Assembly: GCA_947650875.1 (NCBI GenBank)
Contig: CANSXE010000010.1
Coordinates: 1-41,758 of the forward strand
Direction of reading: 5' to 3'
Length of the DNA stretch: 41,758 nt
From: an uncultured Bacillota bacterium
Lineage (GTDB): Bacteria > Bacillota > Clostridia > Oscillospirales > Oscillospiraceae
The translations under genes and the position numbers were made by a program. The notes beneath the pieces were generated by a model. That model was not told where the DNA came from. It saw only the letters and a list, made by a program, of their open reading frames with translations, and did not search any database. Position 1 is the first letter of the stretch; each line of letters opens with the position of its first letter. Below, in pieces: positions 21,514 to 41,758 of the stretch.

Positions 21514-22041
21514 TTACTGTTTTTTACGGTTCTTCTCCTCCTGCGGCTGGAGGATATGCAGGATACGCTGGCAGGCCAGCTGATTGGCATAGCTGCGCAC
21601 AGCGAAATCCAGGGCCATTTTAGCCAGATCAGACTCGTCCGCTTCCGGGTCGATGGCTTGGGCGGTGTCGGTAAGGGCATGGTCCAGGGCGTCCCGGAAG
21701 TAGGCGTACTGCTCCGGGGGACTCTTCTCCAGCGCCCGGCCGGCCCCCATCAGGGCTCCGATGTCCCGGACGGACAGCACCTGCTTCAGCGCCACCACGG
21801 CGGTGAGGTAACCCAGGTGGATGGGGCCGTACCGCTTGCCCTCCGCCCGGGGGACCAGGCCGTCTTTGATATAGTTGTTCACCATGGCGGAGGTGAGCAC
21901 GTTCCCCTCGTCAAAGCGGATGAGCTGCCGGGGCATATAGGAGATGAGCTGGTCCATATACAGGGCAATGTCAGGCAGGTCCTCCCAGGGGGCGGGGCGC
22001 TCCTGTTCCATGCGGGATTTGAGATTTTGCAGTTCGTCCAC
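21514..22041 (-). CDS. DUF1836 protein, MerR-like helix-turn-helix
   Basis: A 175-residue protein matching the DUF1836 pattern. A MerR-like DNA-binding N-terminal part (VLTSAMVNNYIKDGLVPRAEGKRYGPIHLGYL, about 49-80) is followed by a helical region. The YTxxMVNNYIKxGLV-type helix and the GKRYG wing are the recognisable parts. The start is GTG at 22041 with GGAGGAGGG upstream. It lies directly upstream of degV, a pairing often seen in clostridia, and may regulate it; that is inference. A good promoter stands just upstream, so the gene probably heads the unit through the 2-hydroxyacid dehydrogenase gene. Confidence 0.85.
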   Translation of the reverse strand: MDELQNLKSRMEQERPAPWEDLPDIALYMDQLISYMPRQLIRFDEGNVLTSAMVNNYIKDGLVPRAEGKRYGPIHLGYLTAVVALKQVLSVRDIGALMGAGRALEKSPPEQYAYFRDALDHALTDTAQAIDPEADESDLAKMALDFAVRSYANQLACQRILHILQPQEEKNRKKQ

Positions 22042-22076
22042 AGCCGGGACCCTCCTCCATTCATGTAATGCGAAAT

Positions 22077-22106
22077 ATTATATCATGAAATTTCCGGTAT
22101 TGTAAA
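22077..22106 (-). promoter_or_regulatory. Promoter for the DUF1836-degV-prmA unit
   Basis: On the minus strand TTTACA (22101-22106), 18 bases, TATAAT (22077-22082). Confidence 0.7.
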
Positions 22107-22116
22107 GGGGGAAAAC

Positions 22117-23007
22117 CTACCGTTTTCTAAAATATTCCATCCGCCGGCGCAGGCGCTCCTGTGCGCTCTGATGGTCGATGGAGCGCAGCCGGGGGAAAGC
22201 CTTGAGCAGACGCCGGTGGCCGAAGGACTCACGGACCAGCAGCTCCTGCATGGATGCGTGCCACTCCTCCAGCTGGAGCCTGGCCTGGGCCAAAAGCTCC
22301 TCCCGCCGCTGTTCCCGCTCCTCCCGCTCATCGGCCAGCTCCGCCCGGCGCTCGGCCAGCCGGAAGGCCAGCTCGTCCATGTCCTCCTTCCAGTCTGCCC
22401 CCCGCTCGACAGCGTCCAGCACCCGGTCGGCCAGGTTCTCCCCGAACTCGTTGGAGACCTCCTTAATCTTGGCGGCCATCTCGTCCAGCTGCTCCAGACG
22501 GTGGTTAAGCTTGACAATGGCGGACACGGTGGCGGCCAGGTCCACCGCCATCACCGCCCCCAGCAGCACCAGCAGGACAACGCCCAGCGCCTGGGGGATG
22601 ATTCGGATGAACAGCAGCACTGTGGGGTGGAGCAGCTTGACCACAAACATGCAGGCAAAGCCCCAGGCGATGGAAAAGCGCAGGCAGATGTAGCCGCTGA
22701 GGTTAAAGGGCTGGTCGGAGTAGTCCCACCACCGCTGATGGAACAGCTTCTCCAGTACAAAGCCGGTGATCCACTCCAGAGCGGAGGTGAGCACCACCGA
22801 GCCCAGGAACAGCAGAAGCAGGTTGTCCGCCAGGGGGGTGAGACAGGTCAGCACGATGACCACGCCAAAGCCGTAAATCGGGCAGACGGGGCCGTTGAGA
22901 AAGCCCCGGTTGACAAATTTTCCGGTCACCAGGGCGGCGTAGCTCACCTCGGTGCACCAGCCCAGAAAGGCGTAGATAAAGAATATCCAGATAAAACGAT
23001 AGAGCAT
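22117..23007 (-). CDS. CmpB-type membrane protein with a long coiled-coil tail
   Basis: A 296-residue protein. Residues 1-170 contain about five membrane segments and match the putative ABC-transporter type IV (CmpB, PF06541) pattern: FFIYAFLGWCTEVSYAAL, FVNRGFLNGPVCPIYGFG, LEWITGFVLEKLF, WWDYSDQPFNLSGYICL. Residues about 180-285 are strongly charged helix (LAERRAELADEREEREQRREELL), likely a cytoplasmic coiled coil. Despite the family name no ABC ATPase is adjacent and transport is unproven. I chose the ATG at 23007, with GTTTGGAGGAG upstream; a longer reading frame would run through the promoter. The gene is monocistronic and divergent from the GTPase-nuclease fusion. Confidence 0.82.
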   Translation of the reverse strand: MLYRFIWIFFIYAFLGWCTEVSYAALVTGKFVNRGFLNGPVCPIYGFGVVIVLTCLTPLADNLLLLFLGSVVLTSALEWITGFVLEKLFHQRWWDYSDQPFNLSGYICLRFSIAWGFACMFVVKLLHPTVLLFIRIIPQALGVVLLVLLGAVMAVDLAATVSAIVKLNHRLEQLDEMAAKIKEVSNEFGENLADRVLDAVERGADWKEDMDELAFRLAERRAELADEREEREQRREELLAQARLQLEEWHASMQELLVRESFGHRRLLKAFPRLRSIDHQSAQERLRRRMEYFRKR

Positions 23008-23040
23008 GGTCCACTCCTCCAAACAGGATGATTTTTGGAT

Positions 23041-23069
23041 ATTATACCTGTTTAAGGGGAAAATGTCCA
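23041..23069 (-). promoter_or_regulatory. Promoter for the CmpB-like gene
   Basis: On the minus strand TGGACA (23064-23069), 17 bases, TATAAT (23041-23046). Confidence 0.75.
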
Positions 23070-23093
23070 TCCCTTTCGGCGGGAGCTTCGCCC

Positions 23094-23123
23094 TTGACAG
23101 GAGCGGTATACACCATGTATCAT
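23094..23123 (+). promoter_or_regulatory. Promoter for the GTPase-nuclease fusion gene
   Basis: TTGACA (23094-23099), 18 bases, TATCAT (23118-23123). It lies back to back with the CmpB-like promoter, 24 bases away. Confidence 0.7.
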
Positions 23124-23155
23124 GGAACAAATGACACGCGAAGGGCGGAGACCGG

Positions 23156-25768
23156 ATGAAGAAGCTGGTTTTGGGAATGTTGGCCCATGTGGACGCGGGC
23201 AAGACCACCCTGTCCGAAGGGCTTTTATACCTCAGCGGGGCGGTGCGGAAGCTGGGCCGGGTGGACCACCGGGACGCCTTTCTGGACACCGACGCCCAGG
23301 AGCGGGAGCGGGGCATCACCATTTTCTCCAAACAGGCGGAATTTTCCTGGGGGGATACCGCCCTCACCCTGCTGGACACCCCGGGGCACGTGGACTTCTC
23401 CGCCGAGATGGAGCGCACCCTGTCTGTGCTGGACTGCGCCGTGCTGGTCATCAGCGGCACCGACGGCATTCAGGGCCACACCCGCACCCTGTGGCGGCTG
23501 CTGGAGCGGCACGCCATCCCCACCTTCCTCTTTGTCAACAAGATGGACCTGGCGGGGGCGGACCGGAACGCCCTCCTGGCCCAGCTCCAGGACAGGCTGG
23601 ACGGCGGCTGCCTGGACTTCTCCCAGGGGCTGGAGCCGGTCACAGAGGACCTGGCTTCCCTGGACGAGGAGCTGATGGACCGGTATCTGGAGGGAGGACC
23701 GGTCACAACCGGGGACGCCGCCGCCCTGATTGCCCGGCGGCTGGTCTTCCCCTGCTTCTTCGGCTCGGCCCTGAAGCTGGAGGGGGTGGAGGAGCTGCTG
23801 GACGGCCTGTCCCGGTACACCCTGCCCCCCTCCTACCCCACCGACTTCGGGGCGCGGGTGTTCAAAATCGCCCGGGACGGAGCGGACCGGCTCACCTATG
23901 TAAAGGTCACCGGCGGATCCCTCAAGGTGCGCACCCTGCTGCGGGAGGAGAAGGTCAATCAGATCCGCATCTACTCCGGGGCCAAATACCAGACCATCGA
24001 CGAAGCCCCGGCGGGGACGGTGTGCGCCCTCACCGGACTGACCAAAACCCGGCCGGGGGACGTCTTTGGGGTGGAGCCCCCCGCCGCCGGACCCGAGCTG
24101 GAGCCGGTGCTGACCTATCAGGTCATCCTCCCCCCCGGCTGCGACGTCCACACTGCCCTCCGCAATCTCCGCCAGCTGGAGGAGGAGGACCCCCAGCTCC
24201 GGGTGGTTTGGAACGAAACGTTGGGGGAGATTCACCTCCAGCTCATGGGGGAGATTCAGTTGGAGGTGCTCACCCGGCTCATTCGGGAGCGGTTTGGGAC
24301 GGAGGTCTCCTTTGGCGCCGGGAACATCGTCTACCGGGAGACCATCACCAATGCAGTGGAGGGGGTGGGCCACTTCGAGCCCTTGCGGCACTACGCCGAG
24401 GTCCACCTGCTGCTGGAGCCCGGCCCCCGGGGCAGCGGACTGCGCATCACCTCCGCCTGCCCCACTGACCAGCTGGAGCTGAACTGGCAGCGGCTCATCT
24501 TCACCCACCTGATGGAAAAGCGCCACCGGGGTGTGCTCACCGGGTCGCCCATCACCGACGTGAAAATCACCCTGGTGGCCGGCCGGGCCCATGTGAAGCA
24601 CACCGAAGGGGGCGACTTCCGCCAGGCCACCTACCGGGCGGTACGTCAGGGGCTGATGCAGGCGGACAGCATCCTCCTGGAGCCCCACTACGATTTTACC
24701 CTGGAGCTCCCCCCGGACTGCGTGGGCCGGGCCATGAACGATTTGCAGACCATGGGGGGCAGTGTGGAGGGCCCGGAACAGGAGGGGGAGCTGTCCGTCC
24801 TGACGGGCCACGCCCCGGTGGCCGGCCTGCGGGACTACTGGAGAGAGGTCACCGCCTACACCCGGGGCCGGGGACGGCTGTCCTGCACCCTCCGGGGGTA
24901 CGAGCCCTGCGCCAATCAGGAGAAAATTGTCTCCCAACTGGCCTACGACCCGGAGCGGGATGTGGACAACCCGCCCGACTCCGTCTTTTGCTCCCACGGG
25001 GCGGGGGTGATTGTCAAGTGGAATGAGGTCCGGGCACACATGCACGTGGACAGCGGCCTGCGGCTGGGAGAGGAAACACCCCGCCCGGAACCAGCCGCCC
25101 CCTCGGGCGGGGAGCGGCAGTACCGGGGGGGCAGTCTGGAACAGGATAAGGAGCTGCTGGCCGTCTTCGAGCGGACCTACGGCAGGGTGGACCGGGATAC
25201 CGCCTTTCAACCCCAGAAGAAGCCCGCCCGCACCAGCCTGGACGAGGGGAAGTACACCATCCGGGAGCAGAAAACCGGTCCGGAGTACCTCCTGGTGGAC
25301 GGCTACAACATCATTTTCGCCTGGGACGAGCTCACCGCCCTGGCCCGGCAGGACATGCCCGCCGCCCGGGGGGCGCTGGAGGACATCCTGTCCAACTACC
25401 AGGGCTTCCGCAAATGTGTGGTAATTCTGGTCTTCGACGCCTACCGGGTAAAGGGAAATCCCGGCTCGGTGGAGAAGAAAAACAACATCTATGTGGTCTA
25501 CACCAAAGAGGCCGAGACCGCCGACGCCTACATTGAAAAAGCCACCTACGACCTGGGCAAGGACCACCGGGTCCGGGTGGCCACCTCCGACGCCCTGGAG
25601 CAGATGATTATTCTGGGCCACGGGGCTCTGCGGCTGTCCGCCCGGGCCTTTCAGGCGGAGGTGGAACAGACCCAGGGGGAGATATCCGCCCTGGTGGCCA
25701 AGCTGAACCGGCGCAATACGGGGGACCGGAAGGTGAAAAATACGGCGAGATTGATAGAAAAACATTAG
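23156..25768 (+). CDS. TetM/EF-G-like ribosomal GTPase fused to a YacP/Rae1-type NYN nuclease
   Basis: An 870-residue two-part protein. Residues 1 to about 640 follow the five-domain plan of TetM-type ribosomal protection GTPases: G1 AHVDAGKTT (10-18), G2 region RERGITIF, G3 DTPGHVDF (74-81), G4 NKMD (128-131), then EF-G-like domains II-V ending around APVAGLRDYWREV and GYEPC. A linker with SVFCSHGAG and a Pro/Gly-rich part follows. Residues about 705-870 are a NYN (YacP/Rae1) domain: LLVDGYNIIF (D715), LVFDAYRV (D761), ETADAYIEKA (D790) and VATSDALEQ (D812), all four acidic positions kept. YacP/Rae1 proteins cleave mRNA at the ribosomal A site, and TetM-type GTPases act at the same site. Plain TetM proteins end near 640 residues. 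The ATG follows a GAAGGGCGGAG region. Tetracycline resistance is not implied. Confidence 0.9.
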   Translation: MKKLVLGMLAHVDAGKTTLSEGLLYLSGAVRKLGRVDHRDAFLDTDAQERERGITIFSKQAEFSWGDTALTLLDTPGHVDFSAEMERTLSVLDCAVLVISGTDGIQGHTRTLWRLLERHAIPTFLFVNKMDLAGADRNALLAQLQDRLDGGCLDFSQGLEPVTEDLASLDEELMDRYLEGGPVTTGDAAALIARRLVFPCFFGSALKLEGVEELLDGLSRYTLPPSYPTDFGARVFKIARDGADRLTYVKVTGGSLKVRTLLREEKVNQIRIYSGAKYQTIDEAPAGTVCALTGLTKTRPGDVFGVEPPAAGPELEPVLTYQVILPPGCDVHTALRNLRQLEEEDPQLRVVWNETLGEIHLQLMGEIQLEVLTRLIRERFGTEVSFGAGNIVYRETITNAVEGVGHFEPLRHYAEVHLLLEPGPRGSGLRITSACPTDQLELNWQRLIFTHLMEKRHRGVLTGSPITDVKITLVAGRAHVKHTEGGDFRQATYRAVRQGLMQADSILLEPHYDFTLELPPDCVGRAMNDLQTMGGSVEGPEQEGELSVLTGHAPVAGLRDYWREVTAYTRGRGRLSCTLRGYEPCANQEKIVSQLAYDPERDVDNPPDSVFCSHGAGVIVKWNEVRAHMHVDSGLRLGEETPRPEPAAPSGGERQYRGGSLEQDKELLAVFERTYGRVDRDTAFQPQKKPARTSLDEGKYTIREQKTGPEYLLVDGYNIIFAWDELTALARQDMPAARGALEDILSNYQGFRKCVVILVFDAYRVKGNPGSVEKKNNIYVVYTKEAETADAYIEKATYDLGKDHRVRVATSDALEQMIILGHGALRLSARAFQAEVEQTQGEISALVAKLNRRNTGDRKVKNTARLIEKH

Positions 25769-25789
25769 GCGGGGCGATGCCCCGCCTTT
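25768..25789 (+). terminator. Terminator of the fusion gene
   Basis: GGCGGGGC (25768-25775) pairs with GCCCCGCC (25779-25786), 3-base loop, then TTTC. It starts inside the stop codon. Confidence 0.75.
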
Positions 25790-25891
25790 CGCGTTGACAG
25801 CAATGGTCCCAATTGACGGCGCCGGACCGCCGGGGCAGAAATCCGTTTTCAGAAATTTTATATCCCGCGCCATCAGCGTAAAAAAGTCTCT

Positions 25892-25932
25892 ATAAAACCA
25901 CAAAAATTGGATTGCTTATTTTGTGGTTTTAT
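25892..25932. repeat. Perfect 14-bp inverted repeat upstream of the chemoreceptor
   Basis: ATAAAACCACAAAA (25892-25905) and its exact complement (25919-25932) flank a 13-base loop. It stands in the AT-rich 260-base gap before the chemoreceptor gene. No U run follows the stem, so it is either an operator, an attenuator or a weak terminator. The rest of 25790-26030 shows no gene. Confidence 0.7.
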
Positions 25933-26032
25933 GTTACGGTACCGGAGATCGAATTTATTTAAATTGTATATACTGCCGGAGAGACGCATATTATCCTGCC
26001 CTGCATAAAATTAGATGAGAGGAAGATATTAC

Positions 26033-27979
26033 ATGAAATCAATCAAATCAAAAATTCAAGTCAGCATGCTCTCAGTGGTGCTGATTGGCTCTGTTCTGAT
26101 CGGTGTGATTACCGCCCTTCTGAACGCCAGCGGAATTGATGATGTGATGACAAAGACCCTGGGTCCCGCAACCCAGATGGCCGCTGACGCCGTGGAGTGG
26201 AAAATGGGAAACTACTGGACAGCGCTGCAGGAGGCCGCCGCTTCTGATATCTTCCGGGAATCTGAGCCCACCGATCCGGCACTGGTTTCGGTGCGGGAAG
26301 AAATTGCCCAGCGCAACGGTTTTCTTTACACCGGGAAAATGGATGCCACCGGTTTCTCCTCCACAGGGTATAACTACGCGGAGGAGGAGTATTTTAAGCA
26401 GTGCAAATCCACCATGGAGCCCTATATCTCTGACATTATGAACGACGGCCAGCAAATGATCTTTCTGCTGGAGGTTCCGATCATCAACAACGGCCGTTTT
26501 GACGGCGTAGTCTACGGCGGCATCAGCGCCGATTTTCTGTCGGACATTGTGGCCAATCTGGCCATGGGCAGCAACGGCGTGGCCTATGTGCTGGATAACC
26601 GGGGCAACGTCATCGGCCACCGGGAGACCTCCATTGTGGAGGAGGGCTCCAATATGATTGAGGCCGCAAAGACGGACCCCAGTGTGGCGGATGTGGCCGC
26701 TGTAAATCAGCGCATGATTCAGGGCGAAACCGGCTTCGGTGCCTATCAGTTTTATGGCGACAACAAATTTGTGGGCTTTGCTCCCATCGACGGCAATCAG
26801 AGGTGGAGTATTGCCATTGAGACCAGCCAGCGGGAGTTTAAAGCCACCCTGGACCGGAGCATTCTGCTGACCGTCCTGGTGGTGCTCCTGGTTGTCCTTG
26901 CCACCTTCCCGGTGGCAGTCAAGGTGGGCAAGTCCATCTCCGGCCCGATTCAGTCCTGCGTCGCCCGGCTGGAGCAGATGGCCGACGGCGACCTCCATAC
27001 GCCCGCCCCCCAGGTGAAATCCAAGGATGAAACCGCCAAGCTGGCCAAGGCTTTAGAGACCATGCTCGCCCGGCTGAACGACGTGACCCGGGATGTGACC
27101 CATCACTTGAGCAAAATGGCCCAGGGAGATTTCCGTGAGAGCATCGACCGTACATATTGGGGCGACTTCGTGTCCATGGAGCAGTCCATCAAGGCGATCC
27201 ACAGCTCCCTGCGGAACACCCTCTCCCAAATCAGCCAATCTGCCGGAGCCGTGGCAAACGGCGCGGTCCAGGTCTCCAATGGAGCCCAGTCTCTGAGTCA
27301 GGGCGCGGCGGAGCAGGCGAGCGCCGTTCATGAGCTCTCCGCCACAGCGGCCAGCATTGCCGAGACCGCGCGGCAGACTGCCGCCGCCGCAGAGGAGGCA
27401 GGCCAGTTTGTAAACCAGGCCAGCGTGCAGATGGGCGTCAGCGTGAGCTGCGTCAAAGAGCTGAACGCCGCGATGGAGAAGATATCCAACTCCTCGACAG
27501 AGATTGGAAAGATTATTGATACCATTGAAAATATTGCGTTCCAGACCAATATTCTGGCGCTGAACGCGGCCGTGGAGGCCGCCCGGGCCGGGAATGCGGG
27601 CAAGGGCTTTGCCGTTGTGGCCGACGAGGTGCGCAACCTGGCCTCTAAGTCTGACGAGGCCGCAAAGGCCACTAAGGAGCTTATCGAAGGCTCCATCTCC
27701 TCTGTGCAGGAGGGCAGCCAGGTGGTGAAGCGGGTAACCGAGTCCCTGGATAAGACAAACGATATCTCCAGTAACGTCACCCTAAAGGTGAATACCGTGG
27801 TGGAGTCTGTAGAGGGTCAGACCACGGCTATCTCCCAGGTTACCGAGGGGATTGAGCAGATTTCCGCCGTTGTACAGAGCACCTCCGCCACCGCGGAGCA
27901 GAGCGCGGCCACATCTCAGGAGCTGACAGATCAGTCTCTGCTGATGAATAACCTGGTACACAAGTTCCAGTTGAGTTAA
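26033..27979 (+). CDS. Methyl-accepting chemotaxis protein
   Basis: A 648-residue transmembrane chemoreceptor that signals to CheA/CheW. Order: basic N-terminus, TM1 (about 7-28), extracellular Cache-type sensor (about 30-275, with [14 protein letters not shown] and [15 protein letters not shown] as PAS-like Cache strands), TM2 (277-300), HAMP (about 301-355), and a long MA signalling coiled coil whose tip is [19 protein letters not shown] (502-520). The ligand is unknown. I chose ATG 26033, with GAGAGGAAG upstream, over the in-frame ATG at 26015, which has no ribosome site. No che or flagellar genes are in the window, so it is an orphan receptor here. The C-terminus lacks a CheR-binding pentapeptide. 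Confidence 0.94.
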
Positions 27980-40329: not shown

Positions 40330-41532
<1,203 letters not shown>

Positions 41533-41601
41533 TGGAATTTTCCTCCTTATAATTCAGTTATGCTTTTTTGGGGGTTGTTGGGCTGTGGACGTATTGTGGA
41601 T

Positions 41602-41630
41602 ATTTTATCCTATTTCGTCCATAATTGCAA
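41602..41630 (-). promoter_or_regulatory. Promoter of tuf
   Basis: On the minus strand TTGCAA (41625-41630), 17 bases, TAAAAT (41602-41607), about 70 bases before the start codon. It would allow tuf transcription apart from fusA. Confidence 0.65.
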
Positions 41631-41642
41631 CCCTATTTTTCA

Positions 41643-41758
41643 TCAGTCCTGATTGCGGCCGCGCTCGGCCACGATCTTCTCAGCGATGTTCTTGGGAATC
41701 TGGACGTAGCTGTGGGGCTCCATGGAGTACTGGCCGCGGCCCTGAGTGGAGGACCGCA
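41643..41758 (-). CDS. fusA: Elongation factor G, C-terminal end (partial)
   Basis: The last 37 residues of EF-G, the translocase GTPase, cut by the right edge of the window. The visible end reads [17 protein letters not shown], then [15 protein letters not shown] and a short basic tail ending NQD; this is the domain V terminus typical of EF-G. It ends 110 bases before tuf on the same strand. Confidence 0.93.

Follow-up and report, generated by a model that had tools for sequence, protein, structure and literature searches.

A translational GTPase fused to a YacP/Rae1-type NYN domain rarely shares a clostridial genome with stand-alone yacP

In the elongation factor EF-G and in the tetracycline ribosomal protection proteins (Tet), domain IV reaches the decoding centre of the ribosome. 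The nuclease Rae1/YacP of Bacillus subtilis destabilises mRNAs in a translation-dependent manner and, according to the passage on it in a review, is capable of attacking mRNA in the A site of the ribosome (PMC12320835). A single sentence in Atkinson 2015 states that the Tet proteins of ten Clostridiales species have gained a YacP-like NYN domain and that such Tet-NYN proteins may represent a new antibiotic resistance mechanism (PMC4342817). Here we describe a gene of this kind at positions 23156-25768 (+) of a window of 41,758 nucleotides from an uncultured Bacillota bacterium (contig CANSXE010000010.1), which encodes a GTPase of the EF-G/Tet superfamily with a C-terminal NYN nuclease domain. 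A preliminary description of this DNA had pointed out the fusion; the architecture is not new and has been in print since 2015. The two families are almost certainly the same, since both join a Tet/EF-G-type GTPase to a YacP-like NYN domain in Clostridiales, a comparison made by architecture and by the order of the relatives. What is added here to that sentence and its proposal of resistance is the subfamily identity of the GTPase, the spread of the fusion, its exclusion of yacP, the yacP fragments in the old operon and the trees. The fusion combines one architecture with constraint on both active sites, it excludes stand-alone yacP almost totally, and fragments of yacP lie in genomes that carry it. 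We consider it probable (about 0.6) that the protein is a GTPase which binds the ribosome, placing domain IV in its A site, and carries a tethered Rae1-type nuclease, and that it has replaced stand-alone Rae1.

The gene runs from ATG to stop in one uninterrupted frame (Table 1), with every domain called from a Pfam match above its curated cut-off. Domains G and II-V, together with the G motifs AHVDAGKT, RGIT, DTPGH, NKMD and GSA, place the N-terminal part in the superfamily of EF-G/Tet translational GTPases, and the C-terminal part matches NYN_YacP (PF05991) with 161 bits against a cut-off of 24.6. GTPase and NYN domain again share a single open frame in 80/80 relatives, the best 80 of at least 591 confirmed candidates ranked by likeness to the whole fusion protein; the shortest frame among them (684 amino acids, aa) is short because its contig starts within the gene. 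The fusion in one frame and the full set of G motifs, both claimed in the preliminary description, are thus confirmed. An assembly join or frameshift, named there as a danger to its proposal, was looked for and not found; such an artefact is ruled out by the one-frame fusion in all 80 relatives and by the retention of the acidic nuclease residues in 81 of 81 sequences.

These residues, D715, D761, D790 and D812, occupy exactly the positions first proposed for the four acidic residues of YacP/Rae1, and the 81 sequences in which they are invariant are the query and its 80 relatives. Because the relatives had been picked by whole-protein likeness, the residues were also checked in seven fusions found through a search of the NYN family, and all four were kept in 7/7 of these as well as in 23/23 stand-alone YacP proteins. 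Loss of nuclease residues in relatives, a further outcome that would have counted against the proposal, was therefore not observed. The NYN domain matches B. subtilis Rae1 (5mq8/5mq9) by sequence (phmmer E 7.5e-24), and a second model, covering the NYN part alone (residues 631-870), has 5mq9 as its top Foldseek match (E 3.7e-11, template-modelling score 0.74 to the target). Sequence and predicted fold point to B. subtilis Rae1 as the relative of the nuclease, with which the fusion shares the NYN domain, the four aligned Asp and the fold; Rae1 stands alone, whereas the NYN domain here is the C-terminal part of a GTPase. The tether between H630 and D715 measures 70-107 aa (median 83, 69 sequences). 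Amid this variable tether lies a strongly conserved stretch of 16 residues (DKELxAIFERTYG, window 25136-25183) that is present in fused proteins and not in the aligned unfused ones. It is helical in both models, with L667 and T674 kept in 69/69 sequences and G676 in 67/69, and the unfused GTPases that we looked at have their C-terminus before it.

Domain IV is the best-conserved part of the protein (mean identity to the query 0.787, the highest of nine parts compared), and its tip carries the motifs GHFEPLRHYAEV (405-416) and RAHxKHTEGGDFR (477-489), with invariant positions. The C-terminal extension (SVFC..G) recurs in the aligned members, whether fused or not, and is lacking in the Tet(M), Tet(O) and Tet(S) proteins compared. 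The unfused members, annotated as 'translation factor GTPase family protein' (on a Ligilactobacillus salivarius megaplasmid, and clostridial proteins of ~650 aa), belong to this subfamily (42-53% identity) and show its tip motifs and its C-terminal extension, but terminate before the tether helix and carry no nuclease. A GTPase tree of 64 rows was made by a quick search, with six rows (Tet, OtrA-like and paralogues) as the root; the 58 rows of the subfamily separate from these six with a Shimodaira-Hasegawa-like approximate likelihood ratio (SH-aLRT) of 100. The protein also falls short of the NCBIfam cut-off for the translocase EF-G (288 vs 659 bits). In the alignments to PDB structures on which the EF-G comparisons rest, EF-G residues 160-213 (54 residues), which follow the G domain, have no counterpart in the fusion GTPase; we take this skipped stretch to be the G' insert, which is also absent from Tet proteins. 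The VIA-align comparison of the fusion protein covers residues 1-598. Judged by sequence, the fusion GTPase belongs to a separate subfamily that scores far under the Tet cut-offs. We do not argue that the C-terminal extension holds a zinc site: all 58 rows keep C585 and C612, but H614 is Lys in 14/21 unfused rows.

The spread of the fusion was surveyed in a class sample of 293 genomes, comprising the genome that holds the window (77% complete) and further ones sampled at a completeness of at least 90%. NYN_YacP matched in 192 of them: judged by frame length, 99 are fusions, and 88 have a stand-alone gene, G284 counting in both groups; the rest are five shorter cases and an edge scrap (G261). 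Intact stand-alone yacP was present in a single one of the 99 fusion genomes, against 29.7 expected under independence (Fisher p 2.7e-18, a value that ignores relatedness and counts the five short cases and G261 as neither). The five shorter cases are fusions too, left out of the 99, and none has a second NYN: three are one frame from the contig start (G156, G172, G185) and two hold both parts on one contig with a frame change within (G044, G235). This change falls close to where the GTPase part ends (L199, L200) and reflects either a sequence error or a gene that is broken. Among the 99 themselves, one fusion is cut at a contig end (G071) and two others share shorter frames (G062, G190). The fusion occurs in 24 families of this sample. 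Six families hold both kinds, and in five of these (f22, f23, f27, f28, f47) no genome has both. In a phylum sample of 199 genomes the fusion was found in 12, of which three were shared with the class sample, and a second NYN in 0/12; one further genome (G466) has an unfused GTPase and a stand-alone NYN. The preliminary description had held that a separate intact yacP would weigh against its proposal and that genomes with the fusion might lack one; this holds in 98/99, with G284 as the one exception.

The old site of yacP gave a second line of evidence. Stand-alone yacP is found in the order mrnC-rlmB-yacP-sigH (G180, G284), and the rlmB-sigH stretch was located in 12 fusion genomes. yacP was intact there in 1/12 (G284) and present as fragments in 3/12: G022, G097 (~40 residues) and G075 (35 residues). 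The fragment in G022 leaves the first ~47 residues unmatched and is split over two frames for the remainder. The decayed pieces lie in the rlmB-sigH interval at L168 2727-3090, L195 1857-1976 and L197 1523-1627. In the other 8/12 (G191, G238, G253, G174, G208, G120, G156, G291), yacP was undetected at the old site at E 1e-3. Intact yacP followed by sigH was seen in 3/3 fusion-free genomes compared (G051, G095, G206), two of which also showed rlmB while the contig of G095 ends first; yacP is intact in G180 as well. One genus holds both G051 and five fusion genomes, including G022. Four further fusion genomes (G000, G029, G242, G135) have no rlmB match beside mrnC, the contig of G000 ending early, and this stretch therefore says nothing on yacP loss. 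Second NYN matches in G120, G174 and G208 were dropped as candidate yacP remnants; at 21 bits they were below the cut-off, and they lie far from rlmB.

Table 1. Features of the fusion gene, in window coordinates
Feature	Position	Strand	Basis or detail
Fusion gene, EF-G/Tet superfamily translational GTPase + YacP/Rae1 NYN nuclease	23156..25768	+	870 aa
G domain, aa 5-221	23168..23818	+	Pfam PF00009 (GTP_EFTU, 171 bits); all G motifs
Domains II + III, aa 232-387	23849..24316	+	PF22042 (EF-G_D2 232-305), PF14492 (EFG_III 336-387)
Domain IV, aa 390-503	24323..24664	+	PF03764 (EFG_IV)
Domain V, aa 507-588	24674..24919	+	PF00679 (EFG_C)
Subfamily-specific C-terminal extension, aa 589-631, SVFC(S/K)(H/K)G...W...H	24920..25048	+	Alignments
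Tether between GTPase and nuclease, aa 632-710	25049..25285	+	Predicted local distance difference test (pLDDT) <50 at 639-660 and 679-705
Conserved tether helix, aa 661-676, consensus LEQDKELxAIFERTYG	25136..25183	+	Alignment and two models
NYN_YacP nuclease domain, aa 712-855, D715, D761, D790, D812	25289..25720	+	PF05991

The trees bear on how the fusion arose. In the GTPase tree, 37 fused rows group with the long-branched L. salivarius protein (SH-aLRT 97), and the other 20 unfused rows fall outside; the L. salivarius plasmid copy, nested among fused rows, is possibly a later split. In an NYN tree of 56 rows, a clade with support 100/99 unites the 33 fused rows with three stand-alone NYNs (G140, G225, G209). 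The fused rows require two state changes and lie on one side of a branch in 0/200 bootstrap trees, because the NYN of G209 falls beside part of them (85/69). This topology therefore allows one fusion origin and does not prove it. A single fusion of two genes already sharing a genome, followed by a split or with a misplaced row, would fit, and two fusions are also possible. Two of the three stand-alone NYNs in the fused clade, those of G225 and G209, share their genome with an unfused GTPase, which supports a joint role of the two parts; the yacP of G209 adjoins a manganese efflux gene, outside the old operon.

By analogy with EF-G and Tet, the GTPase would bind the ribosome at the factor site and place domain IV in the A site, and the NYN domain, on its flexible tether, may cut A-site mRNA as Rae1 does. 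GTP hydrolysis would withdraw domain IV, and the tethered nuclease could then enter the same A site. Because domain IV and the nuclease are assumed unable to share one A site, the order would be probing or clearing first, then GTP hydrolysis and withdrawal, with cutting second; alternatively, cutting may take place on a neighbouring ribosome. The fusion would thereby have taken over the work of stand-alone Rae1, with yacP lost or decaying between rlmB and sigH. In genomes with the fusion, yacP has almost without exception gone or decayed, which suggests that GTPase and nuclease work together. The A-site mRNases of the RelE type have an unrelated fold, belong to a toxin-antitoxin setting and, unlike the fusion, have no GTPase. 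As named in the review cited above, they act on A-site mRNA (PMC12320835), as is proposed here for the fusion. On a further reading, which we regard as possible though rather unlikely, the unfused GTPase would partner Rae1 elsewhere as well.

Several observations weigh against a coupled protein that replaced Rae1, and part of them would be expected if the two halves had independent jobs: a GTPase with an unassigned task in translation, and an ordinary Rae1 that the fusion merely tethers near ribosomes or sets in dosage, uncoupled from the GTP cycle. An unfused GTPase is found without any NYN in 7/293 genomes (in G203 in two frames), and the GTPase therefore seems useful by itself. A stand-alone NYN occurs without a GTPase match in 74 genomes, among them G140, whose NYN belongs to the fused clade, and the nuclease could act free of the GTPase. 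In the 13 genomes with both genes apart, a distance of 0.3 Mb or more separates the two, or they are on different contigs. The tether is long and of low confidence, and the placement of the NYN domain in the full-protein model is not reliable (predicted template-modelling score 0.55). Replacement also cannot be read from the exclusion alone: no NYN matched in 101/293 genomes, which weighs against replacement as the sole cause of loss, and of the 194 genomes outside the fused count, among them the five with cut or frame-broken fusions, 87 have yacP. As yacP is often absent without a fusion, exclusion by itself is no proof of replacement. G284, the only genome of 293 with intact operon yacP (L145 2246-2758) and a fusion (L112), is a direct exception and possibly a transitional state. 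The 12 genomes of the operon comparison were chosen mainly from f27 and f51, which hold both kinds, and since they come from three families (f27, f51, f74) they are not 12 independent events. Set against independent jobs, the presence of the fusion in 24 families, with the L. salivarius plasmid copy as the only possible later split, and the conserved tether helix hint at more than chance tethering, and we consider this explanation unlikely. The two-frame GTPase of G203 (G203:C63:4252-6167; L104, L108) probably results from a sequence error or from breakage of the gene.

The protein might instead serve in ribosome assembly or in the maturation of rRNA or tRNA, the NYN domain trimming stable RNA while the GTPase checks the new subunit. 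mrnC and rlmB are genes of rRNA processing and modification, and stand-alone yacP lies beside them. Trimming of stable RNA was moreover an early proposal for NYN domains, as cited in Atkinson 2015 (PMC4342817). The relative Rae1, however, acts on mRNAs, which it destabilises dependent on translation and attacks in the A site (PMC12320835 for the A site), and a role in maturation is improbable.

Slightly less credible still is the role proposed in Atkinson 2015, a tetracycline-resistance protein that drives the drug out of the A site and, with its added RNase, cuts RNA in the service of resistance (PMC4342817). The fusion does show the domain order and G motifs of Tet(M)/Tet(O), and some database entries give it a Tet product name. 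Yet it scores 405 bits against a cut-off of 775 (NF012153) and 266 against 1100 (NF033148) with the NCBIfam Tet models, while a Tet(M) control reaches 873 bits and passes three Tet models. Its GTPase is ~30% identical to Tet(M/O/S) and ~50% to the unfused L. salivarius plasmid protein of its own subfamily, and it differs from Tet(M)/Tet(O) in the domain IV tip, in the extra C-terminal extension and in the NYN domain. Pro509 of TetM, in loop III, sits at the drug site, as described in the part of PMC8161019 that deals with this loop. The Pro at this position (residue 509 of the TetM used) is kept in TetM, TetO and an OtrA-like protein, whereas the subfamily has Lys in 57/58 rows (37/37 fused, 20/21 unfused) and Val in one. 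There are also no widely shared neighbours. Membership of the Tet(M)-type resistance proteins was rejected on the bit scores and the Lys. The label 'TetM/EF-G-like' of the preliminary description is accordingly sound for the fold and fails for the Tet(M) type, and 'ribosomal-protection-type', in the sense of drug removal, was not borne out. The mechanism that it had proposed is thus supported in part: the fusion is real, its nuclease site is intact, and the genomes give evidence that the fused NYN substitutes for Rae1, whereas ribosomal protection was not supported.

At NCBI, one of the records listed for the unfused L. salivarius plasmid protein names it 'translation factor GTPase family protein', and others assign it to the TetM/TetW/TetO/TetS family; a fusion protein on an Agathobacter rectalis plasmid (L084 3974-6775) is annotated as a TetM/TetW/TetO/TetS tetracycline resistance protein, a name that is probably misleading. 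Two genomes hold further Tet-like paralogues, one with a Tet-type SPASTPADFR loop (L107, G214) and one with another tip (L106, G178).

An anti-phage or stress-triggered device for shutting off translation, which a nuclease joined to a ribosomal GTPase would suit by inference alone, is very hard to reconcile with a gene that has no PADLOC match as a defence system, occurs in 24 families and is exchanged for yacP.

The surroundings of the gene were examined with simple open reading frame calls on short flanks. No neighbour was widely shared in the 75 of 80 loci that could be placed (L008, L010, L024, L054 and L070 were dropped), the largest neighbour cluster occurring in 7 loci. No RNA leader or riboswitch matched Rfam at gathering scores in window 22000-27000. 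About 15 kb from the fusion, at window 41107-41756, lies a frame that we read as an EF-Tu-type translation GTPase, together with a match to the C-terminal end of EF-G. On the L. salivarius plasmid (NZ_CP117984.1, L082 2402-4920) the unfused GTPase adjoins genes for rpsN (ribosomal protein S14) and a 'putative metal homeostasis protein', and a link to metal limitation of the Zur type is conceivable for this copy. Twelve records of a phage collection match the NYN part; the ten listed, of which six are from Listeria, one is from Enterococcus and three are from faecal samples, are without annotation, and these records are presumed to be host DNA. A search of the open-licence literature by title and abstract start found no other paper treating the fusion, which is no proof of absence, and in that literature we did not find its spread, the exclusion of yacP, the yacP fragments or the distance from Tet in print.

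Taken together, a fusion with an A-site-type GTPase in 24 families, where the separate gene is missing or decaying, would offer a concrete partner for Rae1, with parts that can be separated. For the Clostridia, it means that a common gene, in places named for tetracycline resistance, more probably encodes a housekeeping translation factor, a point of consequence for surveys of resistance genes.

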